Shown: piece after piece, positions 1-26,845 of the stretch
Layout: each line of letters starts with the position of its first letter
Numbering within the stretch: the first letter of the stretch is position 1
Source of the DNA: Flavobacteriales bacterium 33_180_T64
Lineage (GTDB): Bacteria > Bacteroidota > Bacteroidia > Flavobacteriales > Flavobacteriaceae
Assembly (NCBI GenBank): GCA_002162685.1
Contig: MAAQ01000012.1
Coordinates: forward strand, 186,001-250,000
Direction: 5' to 3'
DNA length: 64,000 nt
Notes under the pieces: model-generated
The model's input: only the letters and a program-made list of their open reading frames with translations
Told to the model about the DNA's origin: nothing
Databases searched by the model: none
Made by a program: the position numbers and the translations under genes

Positions 1-199
1 CATAAGGATTTCCCGCTTGTTTTGTTTTTCTATTTGACCAATGTCCCCAAGTAATTGGTGAGATTTTCAAATTTTTAGTATTATAAAAATTTTTCGCCAA
101 AAAAGCTTCCACGAAATGTGTACCTGACCGTGGATGCGAATACACTTTCACTAAATTACCTTTAGTTTTTAATCTAAATAAACGTTTTAGGATATTCAT
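1..199 (-). CDS. Sulfotransferase-like protein, N-terminal fragment cut by the window edge
   Basis: The ATG lies at 199-197 and the frame stays open to base 1, so only about 66 codons are visible. Residues 19-30 read VYSHPRSGTHFV. This matches the 5'-phosphosulfate-binding loop of PAPS-dependent sulfotransferases (usual form YPKSGTTW or SHPRSGTH), in the expected place close to the N-terminus. The family moves a sulfuryl group from PAPS to a hydroxyl or amine of a sugar or lipid in the cytoplasm. The ATG is one base from the stop of the ABC exporter ATPase, so the two are almost certainly co-transcribed and the likely substrate is the exported glycan. The call rests on one motif plus context; the 3'-phosphate-binding motif and the catalytic residues are outside the window. 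Confidence 0.6.
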   Translation of the reverse strand, partial: MNILKRLFRLKTKGNLVKVYSHPRSGTHFVEAFLAKNFYNTKNLKISPITWGHWSNRKTKQAGNPY

Positions 200-200
200 A

Positions 201-1499
201 TTAATCAGGTATATTGAAACTTCCTGGTAATATTGCAATACTCCCAGTTCTATTTAATTTACCAGAACCCCATATATCACCTGCCAAAATATTCAAAGAT
301 GCTGCATTCTCAATGAGGTCAATAAAATTATGAGCATTAGTATCATTTTCAGTAATTAATAGTCTTAAACTATAATCACGTGCTCTCAAATAGAGGTTTG
401 GTATTTCGAGTTCGAAGGTATCTTTCTGTTCTAAATCGGCAAATGAAAATCCCATTTCATCATTGACATAGGATAGTGAAAAATTCATATTAGGATCAAT
501 AAAATTGATGCCAATAAATAATTTTTTATAATTGACCGGTTTATGTTTTTCTAAAGAAACTCTAATTTTAAGATAGTCTCCAGAAATCACTTCATAGACT
601 TCATCCCCTTTTTTATTAAAAAATGAAACATTACTTACTTTCATTTTCTGGTTTCCTTTTCTATCAGTTCTACTTGCTAAATTTATTTGATGTTTATGTT
701 TTTCAGTAGATAAATAAAAATTAACTGCATCATTTTGTGAGCCTTCAAATACAATTTTACCATGCTCTAAAACAAGTGCTCTAGTACATAGACTTTTGAC
801 GGCTGCCATATTATGACTTACAAATAAAACAGTTCGGCCTTCACTATTAGAAATGTCTTGCATCTTACCGATGGCCTTTTTTTGAAATTCGGCATCACCA
901 ACAGCTAAAACTTCATCAATAACTAAAATATCAGGTTCTAAATGTGCCGCAACAGCAAATGCTAAACGCACACGCATACCACTACTATAACGTTTAACTG
1001 GTGTGTCGATATAACGTTCGCAACCACTAAACTCTACAATTTCATCTTCTTTAACCTTAATTTCGGCCTTGGTCATTCCAAGAATTGCTCCATTGAGATA
1101 AATATTCTCACGTCCTGTAAGTTCTGGATGAAACCCTGTACCTACTTCAAGTAAAGATGCTATTCTTCCTCTGGTTTTTATTTCACCAGTAGTAGGACTT
1201 GTTACACGAGATAATAATTTTAACAAGGTGGATTTTCCAGCACCATTTTTTCCAATAATCCCTAATACTTCGCCTTGTTTAACTTCAAAATTAATATCTT
1301 CTAAAGCCCAAACATAATTACTATTAGCTTTAGTGCTTCGATCATTAGTGTCTCCTACTTTTAAGTAAGGGTCTTGTTTTCCTTGTATACGATTCCACCA
1401 ACGATTTAAATCATGACTAATAGTACCTGTACCAACTACTCCGAGTCGGTATTGCTTACTTATGTTTTCGGCTACTAAAATAGTTTTAGGTTGAGTCAT
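201..1499 (-). CDS. Polysaccharide ABC exporter, ATP-binding subunit (Wzt/TagH type) with C-terminal domain
   Basis: The protein has 432 residues. The nucleotide-binding domain fills about 60-270: Walker A GKNGAGKST (83-91), the exporter-specific stretch SLLEVGTGFHPELTGREN (115-132), signature SSGMR (172-176) and Walker B ILVIDE (191-196). The N-terminus carries an extra segment before the domain, as in other Wzt proteins. Residues about 275-432 form an additional domain rich in predicted beta strands, in the position of the Wzt carbohydrate-binding domain that recognises the finished glycan terminus before export. It pairs with the permease three bases upstream and drives transport of a lipid-linked glycan across the inner membrane. 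Homology to Wzt/TagH is clear; binding of a specific glycan end is inferred. Confidence 0.9.
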   Translation of the reverse strand: MTQPKTILVAENISKQYRLGVVGTGTISHDLNRWWNRIQGKQDPYLKVGDTNDRSTKANSNYVWALEDINFEVKQGEVLGIIGKNGAGKSTLLKLLSRVTSPTTGEIKTRGRIASLLEVGTGFHPELTGRENIYLNGAILGMTKAEIKVKEDEIVEFSGCERYIDTPVKRYSSGMRVRLAFAVAAHLEPDILVIDEVLAVGDAEFQKKAIGKMQDISNSEGRTVLFVSHNMAAVKSLCTRALVLEHGKIVFEGSQNDAVNFYLSTEKHKHQINLASRTDRKGNQKMKVSNVSFFNKKGDEVYEVISGDYLKIRVSLEKHKPVNYKKLFIGINFIDPNMNFSLSYVNDEMGFSFADLEQKDTFELEIPNLYLRARDYSLRLLITENDTNAHNFIDLIENAASLNILAGDIWGSGKLNRTGSIAILPGSFNIPD

Positions 1500-23888: not shown

Positions 23889-25463
23889 TTAATTTTTAAG
23901 TATAATATTACTATACTTTGCATTGAGCACAATACTTTTCCCATTACGATTTCCATTGGGATAAAACTCAATAGTCTTTTGAGTGGTTAATTTATTATTT
24001 AATCGCGAACGATTGCCTTTAAAATACACACTATAATCGGTCTTAGGAAGTTTAATAACAGCATCACTATTTTCTAAAACCACATTAAGATTTGTAAAAC
24101 TATCTGTAATATTGAGAATTGATAAATCGCCAAAACTACCATCAATAATCGCATTTCCTATAAGATTATCAATATACATATCAGACGAGTTGCTATTAAG
24201 TCTTAAACTACCAACTGTATTAAGATGTGCATCATCAACGTATTTCAAAATTAATTCACCAGCATTCCAAGTATTGATGTGTACAGGAGAATAAGACACA
24301 TTGATGGAAGTCTCGCTTCCATCAATGTGATTTGCTACTAATGTAGTATGTGATAAATCTGCTTTTAGATTGTAAATTGAAGATATTTTTAATTCACCAT
24401 GTCTTACATTCAAATTCAACTTTGCACCTTTAGGCATTTTAATTTTAATCGTTCGCTTGACATTATCTCCTCGTTCCAAACGTTTTTCAAGATGTAAGCG
24501 ACGTTTTTCATGAATTTCTTGTCTTTTTTCATGAGTTTCATGGCGTTTTTCCATACGTCTTTCTACCATTTCTTGACGTTTGTCCATTGTCTTTTCTCTT
24601 TCTTCCATTCGCTCTTCTAAGACTTTCGCACGCGCTTCCATTTCTTTACCATACTTTTCTCCCCAAACTTCCATCTTTTTAGACCATTCGCCATCAAATT
24701 TCTTCTCAAACTCTTCTCCCCAAGCTTCCATTTTTCTTTCGTAATCTTTACCGAATTTTTTACCAAATTTTTCTCCCCAAACTTCCATTTTTTTCTCATA
24801 AGAAGAAAAGTCTACTTTTGCCATCTCTTTTCCCCAAGCTTTCATTTTTTTACGATCTTTTTCAGGATAGGTTTTACTCCATTTTTCAAGATAAGCATCT
24901 CCATCTTTTTTATAAGCTTCGGTATCAAAACTCACATCAGTAATACCTTTAGGTAGTTCTGGTAATTCTGGAAGTTCAGGAACATCTGGCACATCAAAAT
25001 GAGCCATTTCTGGTAGTTCAGGTAACTCAGGCATTTCTGGCATTTCTGGAAATTCTGAAAGATTTAAGTCTCCTAAAACTTCTAGAACTTCTAAAGATTC
25101 TAACCCAAGATTTAAAGATTCTAAATCGATATGCAAGCCATCAAGGTTCTCCCAAGATCCATGAGATCCATCAGATGTAATTCTTACATTACTTCCTGAG
25201 CCTTCAACTTTAAGATTCCAATGTTTTAAGGCATCTTCTAATTCTTCTTTAGATAATTTTTCACCTTCAATATAAGCTTCAACTTCTAAGGTACTTTTGT
25301 TCCAGGTATCAATCTCTATTTGCACATAACTTGTGTTTAAATCGATAGTAACGTCTTTAGTAACATCTATTTTCTCTGATATTTTAGTTAGTTTTTGCTG
25401 TGCTGAAACACTTAATGTGAAACCTATCAATACTAGGAATACTGTTATATATTTTGTTTTCAT
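23889..25463 (-). CDS. Exported repeat protein of the ECF sigma operon (Pro-Glu tripeptides, 19-mers, heptads, beta-rich C-terminus)
   Basis: I start at the ATG at 25463 (524 residues), because it gives a clean signal peptide MKTKYITVFLVLIGFTLSVS cut before AQQ; the frame could also start 12 codons earlier. Order: short beta region (25-100); leucine-rich segment; Pro-Glu-Leu/Met tripeptides (about 139-172); three full 19-residue repeats starting at M207, M226 and M245, with a partial fourth at M264 (unit MEVWGEKFGKKFGKDYERK); Arg/Glu heptads (305-332, EKRHETH, EKRQEIH, EKRRLHL, EKRLERG); then a beta-rich C-terminal domain resembling DUF4097 / GIN auto-transporter-adhesin heads. Genes placed directly after a sigma/anti-sigma pair are usually targets or sensors of envelope stress. 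I do not know a named function. Confidence 0.75.
   Translation of the reverse strand: MKTKYITVFLVLIGFTLSVSAQQKLTKISEKIDVTKDVTIDLNTSYVQIEIDTWNKSTLEVEAYIEGEKLSKEELEDALKHWNLKVEGSGSNVRITSDGSHGSWENLDGLHIDLESLNLGLESLEVLEVLGDLNLSEFPEMPEMPELPELPEMAHFDVPDVPELPELPELPKGITDVSFDTEAYKKDGDAYLEKWSKTYPEKDRKKMKAWGKEMAKVDFSSYEKKMEVWGEKFGKKFGKDYERKMEAWGEEFEKKFDGEWSKKMEVWGEKYGKEMEARAKVLEERMEEREKTMDKRQEMVERRMEKRHETHEKRQEIHEKRRLHLEKRLERGDNVKRTIKIKMPKGAKLNLNVRHGELKISSIYNLKADLSHTTLVANHIDGSETSINVSYSPVHINTWNAGELILKYVDDAHLNTVGSLRLNSNSSDMYIDNLIGNAIIDGSFGDLSILNITDSFTNLNVVLENSDAVIKLPKTDYSVYFKGNRSRLNNKLTTQKTIEFYPNGNRNGKSIVLNAKYSNIILKN
24468..24845 (-). repeat. Coding repeats: 19-residue units followed by heptads
   Basis: Bases 24675-24845 encode three exact-length 57-bp units, followed by a partial fourth (consensus M-x-x-W-G-E/K-x-x-x-K-x-F-x-x-x-Y/W-x-K/R-K). 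Bases 24468-24551 encode four 21-bp units beginning Glu-Lys-Arg. The regular spacing points to tandem duplication inside the gene. Confidence 0.85.
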
Positions 25464-25527
25464 TTTTTTTGTTTTATTCTGAAATAGACCCTTCATCATA
25501 ATGGCAATAAGCCTTTCAGTGTATTGT

Positions 25528-26127
25528 TTATGTTCTGTTTTTTACTTCTTCCGAAGTGTTTAAATCATGTAACTGTTCTTTTAAGCGATACAATAAATTA
25601 AGACGCAACTTCAAATTATCTATCAATGCACTAACCGTTAATTCATTGGGTCCATTATTAGTTAATTCAACCGATAAACGCTTATATTCTTGATTTAACT
25701 CAGCCAATCTCACAACGTAACCATCAAACAATTCTTTATTTGCTGGAGTTTGTTTTACTTTAGATAACTCTAAATTAATGTTTGCTAAATAGTAATCTTC
25801 TACCTTTTTTAAATCTGGAGAAATATCGCCTAGAGATTTCATTTGAGTTTCACTTCCTAAATTTTCGCTTTTAGAATTTTCTCCTGCGACTTCAGTTCCT
25901 TCTGGTAAAAGAGGTGCATTTAAATATTGAGAGGCTCCAAATCCTAATCCAATTAGAAGCACAATACTTGCTGCAATTTGCAACATACTGAAACGTTTTT
26001 CAACTAATGATTCTTTAGGTAATGCGTCATCTAATTTTTCAAGAAAACGTGCTTCATGACCTTCGCTCATTTTTAATTGCGACTGCTTTTGCTCATTTTC
26101 AAATAGATGTTTAAGATCTTGTGCCAT
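25528..26127 (-). CDS. Anti-sigma factor-like single-span membrane protein
   Basis: The 199-residue protein has a cytoplasmic N-terminal part (1-45, EARFLEKLDDALP), one membrane helix (about 48-68, MLQIAASIVLLIGLGFGASQ) and a helical periplasmic part rich in charged residues (NKELFDGYVVRLAELNQEYK). Its start overlaps the end of the ECF sigma gene by 17 bases, so the two are translated together. This is the standard layout of a membrane anti-sigma factor that holds its sigma factor until a signal arrives. I see no zinc-binding HxxxCxxC motif, so it is not a ZAS-type protein. The function is inferred from layout and context. Confidence 0.75.
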   Translation of the reverse strand: MAQDLKHLFENEQKQSQLKMSEGHEARFLEKLDDALPKESLVEKRFSMLQIAASIVLLIGLGFGASQYLNAPLLPEGTEVAGENSKSENLGSETQMKSLGDISPDLKKVEDYYLANINLELSKVKQTPANKELFDGYVVRLAELNQEYKRLSVELTNNGPNELTVSALIDNLKLRLNLLYRLKEQLHDLNTSEEVKNRT

Positions 26128-26668
26128 TTCTAATAGGTATTAAAAGTTCTTTTAATTTCGATTTTCCTCTAGAGAGTTGTGTTCTTGATGCAATTTCAGT
26201 AATATTTAATATTTCTGAAATCTCTTGATGGTCATAACCTTCAACCAAATATAACATCACGACATAGCGATATTTATCAGGCAACTTGTTAATTGCATCT
26301 TTAACCTCATCTAGGCTCATTGTATCATCTACTAACCATTCGTTTTCATAACTTACATCAACAACTTTGAGGTGCACCTCATCCAATTCTTCTAAATGTT
26401 GTTTCTTGGATTTTAAACAGTCGATACTTTTATTTACAACGATACGTTTTAACCAAGCTCCAAAAGTTACTTCAGCTTTATACTGATTGAGTTTTGCAAA
26501 TGCTTTAATAAAGGCTTCCTGTACGATATCTTCAGCTTCCATAGAATCCTTTACAAATCGCATCGCAACAGTAAACATACCATCACAATATTGATTGTAT
26601 AATTTTAATTGCGCAGTTCGATTATTCTGCTTGCATTGCTCAATAATGTCAACTTGAAATGTTTTCAA
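26111..26668 (-). CDS. ECF RNA polymerase sigma factor
   Basis: The 185-residue protein has region 2 (AQLKLYNQYCDGMFTVAMRFVKDSMEAEDIVQEAFIKAF; the tail DIVQEAFIKAF binds core and the -10 element) and region 4 (INKLPDKYRYVVMLYLVEGY; DHQEISEILNITEIASRTQL, a helix-turn-helix for -35 recognition). There is no region 3, as expected for ECF sigma factors. The frame must start at a TTG (26668-26666), since a stop lies upstream in frame and the first ATG is already inside region 2. It forms an operon with the anti-sigma factor and the repeat protein. The likely trigger is envelope stress, but nothing in the sequence fixes it. Confidence 0.92.
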   Translation of the reverse strand: MKTFQVDIIEQCKQNNRTAQLKLYNQYCDGMFTVAMRFVKDSMEAEDIVQEAFIKAFAKLNQYKAEVTFGAWLKRIVVNKSIDCLKSKKQHLEELDEVHLKVVDVSYENEWLVDDTMSLDEVKDAINKLPDKYRYVVMLYLVEGYDHQEISEILNITEIASRTQLSRGKSKLKELLIPIRNGTRS

Positions 26669-26845
26669 ATCTCTTTTGGTTTGGTTATATACCTCTATAA
26701 CTTTTATTAATCATTTTGAAAGCTATTTTTGGTATAGGTTCACTTTAAAGACGATACAAAAAAGTGAGTGTTGCAAAAATTTGTTGTTTTTTTAAATTTA
26801 ATAAGAAAAACTGAAATCTCAGCGTTATTAATTTAGCATTTAAAT

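Follow-up and report, generated by a model that had tools for sequence, protein, structure and literature searches.

The window analysed here, a stretch of 64,000 nucleotides from Flavobacteriales bacterium 33_180_T64, contains on its minus strand a gene for a putatively exported protein whose predicted beta-solenoid is interrupted by a long arm, preceded directly and on the same strand by the genes for a sigma factor and an anti-sigma factor (Table 1). The three genes are presumably co-transcribed. The open reading frame of the armed protein spans 23889-25499 and encodes 536 amino acids. Its likely start is the inner ATG at 25463, where relatives start too, and the span of 23889-25463 given in a preliminary description of the gene is right. 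Residue numbers used here count from 25499 and equal those of that description plus 12. The N-terminus, MKTKYITVFLVLIGFTLSVSA-QQ, is plausibly a signal peptide, as judged by its sequence; a lipobox-like motif was found in 0 of 77 relatives of the armed protein, which is probably a soluble protein of the periplasm. In a Pfam and NCBIfam scan, nothing scored above a family cut-off for the armed protein, in line with the earlier remark that no described family has this combination of features. Its repeats did not turn out to be a known Pfam coiled-coil family, and the gene is not missing after orthologous sigma factors. Directly after the operon lies an open reading frame for a serine beta-lactamase-like hydrolase (PF00144; 22337-23845, minus strand), and open reading frames of similar length also follow the operon in several relatives.

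Table 1. Features of the operon and their positions in the window.
Feature	Position	Strand	Basis
Armed exported Toastrack-type protein (main finding)	23889..25463	-	open reading frame, relatives, model
Putative signal peptide, residues 13-33, A-Q cleavage site	25401..25463	-	sequence; lipobox-like motif in 0/77 relatives
N-terminal beta segment of the solenoid, residues 36-112	25164..25394	-	model strands; colinear with arm-less relatives
Arm: Pro-Glu-Met/Leu limb, residues 146-184	24948..25064	-	shuffle test
Arm: Trp/Met repeats, residues 213-290, hydrophobic period 3.80	24630..24863	-	lag identity, spacings, period; part of model helix 231-340
Arm: Glu/Arg/Lys-rich part with heptads, residues 291-346	24462..24629	-	21-bp repeat, model
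C-terminal beta-solenoid segment, residues 347-536	23892..24461	-	block pLDDT, fold match
Anti-sigma factor, one putative membrane helix, helical periplasmic domain	25528..26127	-	named from place and layout; no Pfam or NCBIfam match above cut-off
Likely membrane helix of the anti-sigma factor, residues 43-69	25921..26001	-	model helix, hydrophobic sequence
Helical periplasmic domain of the anti-sigma factor, residues 99-198	25534..25833	-	model; invariant columns
ECF sigma-70 factor (TTG start)	26111..26668	-	Sigma70_r2 3.6e-14, Sigma70_r4_2 1.2e-14
ECF-type promoter TGCAAC-N16-CGTCTTTA upstream of the sigma gene	26746..26775	-	no other match in the window at 1 mismatch or fewer; 0.04 expected

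A structure model of the armed protein, built from 34 sequences (mean pLDDT 75, pTM 0.53), has beta strands at residues 37-109 and 347-535, short helices at 193-227 and a single predicted helix of 110 residues at 231-340. Block pLDDT is 90 or more in all blocks but one of the C-terminal part, and 61-76 in the long helix, falling to 44 at residues 331-340. The predicted fold is a right-handed beta-helix of the 4QRK type. Structural comparison of the model returned 3lyc_A with a Z of 17.6 (rmsd 3.0, 218 of 241 residues aligned, span 35..536) and 4qrk with a Z of 12.7 (rmsd 2.7, 153 residues aligned, span 36..429). Because the 218 aligned residues exceed the 190 of the C-terminal part, the match to 3lyc_A makes use of the N-terminal part too. 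Foldseek found no match at E 0.001 or better, 4qrk being listed at E 0.011 with a probability of 0.94, and a sequence search of the PDB gave no clear relative (best E 0.018 with alignment A1, none up to E 1 with alignment A3).

Alignment A3 consists of eight arm-less relatives of 278-454 residues. It is headed by L119, a sigma-linked protein scoring 24.8 against the PF13349 cut-off of 22.9, and it aligns with the armed family over the whole length: hhalign of the two gave a probability of 99.65 and an E of 5.2e-25, colinear over 12-533, with the arm as a gap. When the organism's own genome was searched with the A3 profile, the armed protein was matched in two pieces flanking the arm, and two arm-less paralogues were found, both also located after sigma and anti-sigma genes. 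The hhalign result, these paralogues and the fold match over both segments are the reasons for placing the repeats in an arm inserted in the solenoid. Judged by model and alignment, residues 36-112 and 347-536 are one predicted Toastrack/DUF4097-type solenoid, with an arm of ~230 residues between them. The beta-rich DUF4097/GIN-type domain of the preliminary description is supported by the fold and the relatives, but it is split by the arm rather than placed after it. Its layout of signal peptide, stalk and head is rejected, given the fold match over both segments, the hhalign alignment, the two-piece profile match and the paralogues in the own genome. At E 0.05, the 34 members examined matched 18 families between them, none of which was DUF4097, DUF2807 or DUF2154. 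Three proteins (L108, L123 and L124, from three genomes in two genera) keep the arm and the N-terminal strands and lack the C-terminal solenoid, no remnant of which was found before the next gene; the sequence that follows is what we take to be a cysteinyl-tRNA synthetase.

The arm contains three repeat systems. In the Pro-Glu-Met/Leu run at residues 151-184, eight PE[ML] tripeptides are found, a number reached by 0 of 20,000 whole-protein shuffles (shuffle maximum 4); these tripeptides, as first described, are real and correctly placed. Units of 19 residues begin at M219, M238, M257 and M276 and carry Trp at 222, 241, 260 and 279. Shifted by 19 and 38 residues against itself, the protein has residue identities of 0.40 and 0.41, the maximum being reached by 0 of 20,000 shuffles. 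What had been called exact 19-residue repeats are exact in length in this protein, but not in sequence; Tandem Repeats Finder (score of 40 or more) did not list a 57-bp array. The Arg/Glu heptads, at residues ~317-344, proved real as well and are seen by that program as a 21-bp period at 24502-24551.

Hydrophobic residues in the segment 215-290 have a best period of 3.80, equal to 19/5 (0 of 2000 shuffles), so the Trp repeats are not a canonical heptad coiled coil with its hydrophobic period of 3.5. Non-canonical coiled coils with repeats of 11, 15 and 19 residues (hendecads, pentadecads and nonadecads) are reported in PMC10425188. The charged part that follows the Trp repeats has no clear hydrophobic period, its best being reached by 751 of 2000 shuffles. 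A salt-bridged single helix was considered and found unsupported, with 17 i/i+4 acid-base pairs vs a shuffle mean of 17.4. Across the 77 armed proteins, 165 of the 179 spacings between successive Met-x-x-Trp motifs fit 3+4n residues; the spacing is 19 in 120 cases and otherwise mostly 11, 15 or 23. In a hand-thinned set of 49 proteins, the rule applies to 93 of 105 spacings, and to 34 of 46 with 19 excluded. The earlier statement that the units keep exact length thus holds within this protein, but not across the family, where spacings of 11, 15, 19 and 23 occur. Since the spacings follow 3+4n, single helical turns are gained or lost while the hydrophobic seam is kept, and the conserved feature of the arm is this seam, not the length of 19 residues.

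If straight, the 110-residue helix is ~16 nm long (110 residues at 1.5 A). If, as an insertion requires, both ends of the arm also meet at the solenoid, the Pro-rich limb and the short helices must run out about as far as the helix returns, and the Pro-rich limb would pair with the long helix. Limb lengths covary on the tree (r 0.31, p 0.008; 71 of the 77 proteins; raw r 0.22, p 0.07), as they do in the 57 proteins with at least 8 Pro (r 0.52, p 4e-5), a subset chosen afterwards; the covariation is modest and partly post hoc. Proline number has no relation to the length of the second limb (rho 0.04). The second limb ranges from 111 to 213 residues, and arm length is not constant. This natural series of arm lengths offers a way to ask how a periplasmic arm is built and read.

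The model of the anti-sigma factor (pLDDT 82, pTM 0.50) has helices at residues 43-69, 104-123, 128-158 and 162-198. Its periplasmic domain (99-198), which holds 11 of the 17 invariant columns among 69 aligned sequences, is predicted to be a conserved helical bundle. Comparison of this domain with known structures included three CnrX rows at Z 7.2-7.4, many helical bundles scoring equal or higher. In all, 104 loci were gathered. Sixteen were left out, namely L031-L033, whose places equal those of L002, L004 and L005, eleven duplicates within L039-L064, the M56 protein of L038, and L134, a stretch of 100 bases. Of the 88 kept, 77 were counted as armed, the others being L119, L120, L121, L122, L126 (an M56 protein), L127, L128, L129, L130, L131 and L133. 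The anti-sigma gene lies beside the armed gene in all 77 armed loci and the sigma gene in 76, the one miss (L014) being at a contig end, which bears out the link to a sigma/anti-sigma pair made in the preliminary description. A place after these two genes, together with a putative signal peptide, is RseB-like.

Five of the eight arm-less relatives in A3 (L119, L120, L128, L131 and L133) also have sigma and anti-sigma matches upstream. The own genome has three sigma/anti-sigma/Toastrack operons, one armed and two arm-less. Because arm-less versions occupy the same operon place, the general function does not require the arm. The second operon (L163:428-3379, plus strand, G000:C7) is followed by a DUF2807 head GIN protein, and the third (L164:376-3218, plus strand, G000:C23) by a 222-residue putative exported, outer-membrane-like protein.

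Upstream of the sigma gene, the pattern GCAA[CT]-N16-CGTC was found in 66 of 84 loci, with 0.085 expected by shuffling and 0 in reversed sequence; 65 of these are among 76 armed loci and one among eight other loci. The 18 loci in which it is missing include 11 armed ones, nine of which have, by eye, GCCAC, GTCAC or GAAAC at the same 16-base spacing. The full form has one copy in this genome, at the own operon. A search of this genome for a regulon yielded four sites of GCAAC-N16-CGTC vs 11 in the backward control, and 26 vs 41 for TGCAAC-N16-CGTCTTTA with up to 2 mismatches. Ten promoter-like sites were inspected: seven fall within open reading frames of 50 codons or more, one is followed by no such frame over the next 400 bases, and two (L088 and L097) are intergenic and precede a start. 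These last two, with 2 mismatches and of a kind not above control, lie 46 bp ahead of a membrane protein (L088) and 68 bp ahead of a GIN-like exported protein (L097). By sequence, the own operon is thus the only sigma target in sight in this genome. The 12-base form TGCAAC-N16-CGTCYTT is present in 87 of 149 genomes; because the backward control matches in 36 of the 149, the single-target claim is confined to this genome.

Of 149 Flavobacteriaceae genomes, 97 have the anti-sigma type together with the armed protein, 52 have neither and 0 have only one of the two, at cut-offs of E 1e-45 for the anti-sigma factor and E 1e-20 for the armed protein that were set at gaps seen in the tables. Weaker matches were scored as absence, both for the anti-sigma factor (five genomes: G023, G035, G055, G116 and G179) and for Toastrack proteins (E 1e-6 to 1e-12); the 52 include small or incomplete genomes. 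Within the genus of the window, 21 genomes have both and two have neither (23 genomes). Of 395 genomes drawn from the phylum, 51 gave a match, 36 of them outside the family; profile positions 116-327 (the arm) are untouched in these 36 among the matches listed. These results point to a three-part envelope module in 97 of the 149 Flavobacteriaceae genomes sampled; its promoter is easily testable, and its partner protein is not covered by any curated family model (Pfam, NCBIfam).

Toastrack proteins beside stress regulators and, in general terms, beside an operonically linked sigma factor are already in print, with 4QRK named as an example (PMC11237479). This superfamily (DUF4097/DUF2154/DUF2807; LiaG, the LiaF C-terminus and LiaX) is like the armed protein in its beta-helix fold of the 4QRK kind, and the arm-less operon relative exceeds the PF13349 cut-off. 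While an intracellular location is predicted for Toastrack in PMC11237479, the armed protein has a putative signal peptide; its chain is without PspC or another membrane part, its solenoid is split by the arm, and a DUF4097, DUF2807 or DUF2154 match is absent among the families listed for the 34 members. The present operons place exported Toastrack proteins beside sigma factors.

LiaX of Enterococcus, reported to be an exported protein with an alpha-helical and a PF13349 (DUF4097) part that restrains LiaFS (PMC10269926), likewise combines a helical and a DUF4097-type part in one exported chain. However, its helical N-terminal domain precedes the C-terminal DUF4097 domain, a layout that the armed protein, with its helical part inside the beta part, does not have, and LiaX works with LiaFSR, whereas the gene partners here are sigma and anti-sigma factors. 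RseB is described as a protector of the anti-sigma factor RseA that binds to its periplasmic domain (PMC2215328), and the gene order rpoE-rseA-rseB-rseC is reported for Shewanella (PMC4336711). The armed protein resembles RseB as an exported protein encoded with sigma and anti-sigma genes, but is a predicted beta-solenoid with an arm, and Pfam and NCBIfam yielded no RseB/MucB family match at E 1 or lower. In the streptococcal antigen I/II, a helix and a polyproline helix form a stalk (PMC3178794), reminiscent of the helical and Pro-rich limbs of the arm; here, however, the limbs are adjacent within one insertion, with a pairing that is only proposed, and no sequence relation to antigen I/II was found. 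No description of the triad, its promoter, the arm insertion or the seam rule turned up in the open-licence papers searched.

We propose that the gene could be the third member of an autoregulated operon of an ECF sigma factor, an anti-sigma factor and an exported Toastrack protein. Envelope stress would lead the sigma factor to raise the level of the armed protein, whose solenoid would dock on and steady the helical periplasmic domain of the anti-sigma factor, as a feedback brake comparable to RseB on RseA or LiaX on LiaFS. The arm would run out through its Pro-rich limb and back through the long helix, reaching ~16 nm into the periplasm, and would bind a stress signal or a client. Because the own operon is the only target in sight, the sigma factor would have to act through the exported protein. 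A sigma-induced periplasmic protein that is both the output and the feedback brake of the switch is our best reading, and we give it an even chance of being right. The dual role is preferred over a pure effector because of the RseB and LiaX precedents and the conserved periplasmic domain of the anti-sigma factor. One of the alternatives offered in the preliminary description, a protein that reports to the sigma/anti-sigma pair, would fit the evidence from the operon.

It is possible, though on balance we think it unlikely, that the protein is purely an effector, namely a sigma-induced periplasmic chaperone or scaffold comparable to Skp, which has a beta body with helical arms. It would shield envelope proteins or the outer membrane and make no contact with the anti-sigma factor. 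With a single full-form promoter in the genome and no further targets above control, the exported protein is the output in sight; such an output need not touch the anti-sigma factor. The Trp/Phe/Met seam of the arm would suit clients, and the arm is kept where the solenoid is lost. Because L108, L123 and L124 keep the arm without the C-terminal solenoid, the solenoid is not always needed, which suggests that the arm is the working part in these proteins and fits poorly with a solenoid that always docks. However, the exceptionless co-occurrence with one anti-sigma type over 149 genomes and the conserved periplasmic domain of that factor both suggest a partner, and arm-less paralogues stand in the same operon place.

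A further reading, in our judgement doubtful, is a Toastrack solenoid with a two-limb hairpin arm, with the Pro-rich limb leading out and an aromatic-striped helix leading back, that would span much of the periplasm and whose reach or tension would be read by the anti-sigma factor. If this were true, the three repeat systems would work together as a single device, whose arm length would adjust the switch from one species to another. We regard as improbable a structural spacer or sensor of envelope geometry, in which the arm would bridge the cell wall or outer membrane to the anti-sigma factor and reach rather than a ligand would be read: the predicted helix 231-340 of 110 residues (~16 nm if straight) and the covariation of limb lengths on the tree (r 0.31, p 0.008; Pro-rich proteins r 0.52, p 4e-5) argue for it, but arm length varies (second limb 111-213 residues), the raw correlation over 71 proteins is weak (r 0.22, p 0.07), helix confidence in the model is moderate and no peptidoglycan- or membrane-binding domain was matched in Pfam or NCBIfam.

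A surface adhesin with a rigid stalk and a binding head under sigma control would accord with the Pfam name of the DUF2807 head GIN domain, putative adhesin, and with a DUF2807 protein of P. gingivalis for which an adhesin role is reported (PMC10949514), but is very improbable, as the arm is inserted in the body and not between an anchor and a head, and the adhesive tip suggested in the preliminary description finds no support, with a lipobox-like motif in 0 of 77 relatives and no match to a type IX C-terminal secretion domain up to E 1 in Pfam or NCBIfam. A functionless arm arisen by low-complexity drift is hardly credible: although the charged segment 291-346, of 39-68 residues, is the least conserved part within the genus (mean identity 0.45) and is without a hydrophobic period, conservation of the Trp repeats comes close to that of the solenoid (0.70 vs 0.73 and 0.79) and the hand-thinned set keeps the 3+4n rule (93 of 105 spacings).

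M56/BlaR1 proteins were considered as general carriers of an arm-like module and rejected, as four of 30 sampled have at least three Pro motifs and two of these four a charged run. Because only two of these 30 other M56 loci combine a Pro run with a charged run, we treat as anecdotes two M56/BlaR1-type proteins, assigned by Pfam (L038:2807-4702, plus strand; L126:3015-4643, minus strand), in which a long tail rich in Met, Glu and Lys, closely resembling the arm, comes after runs of the PEMPEMPELPE or PEAPEM type.
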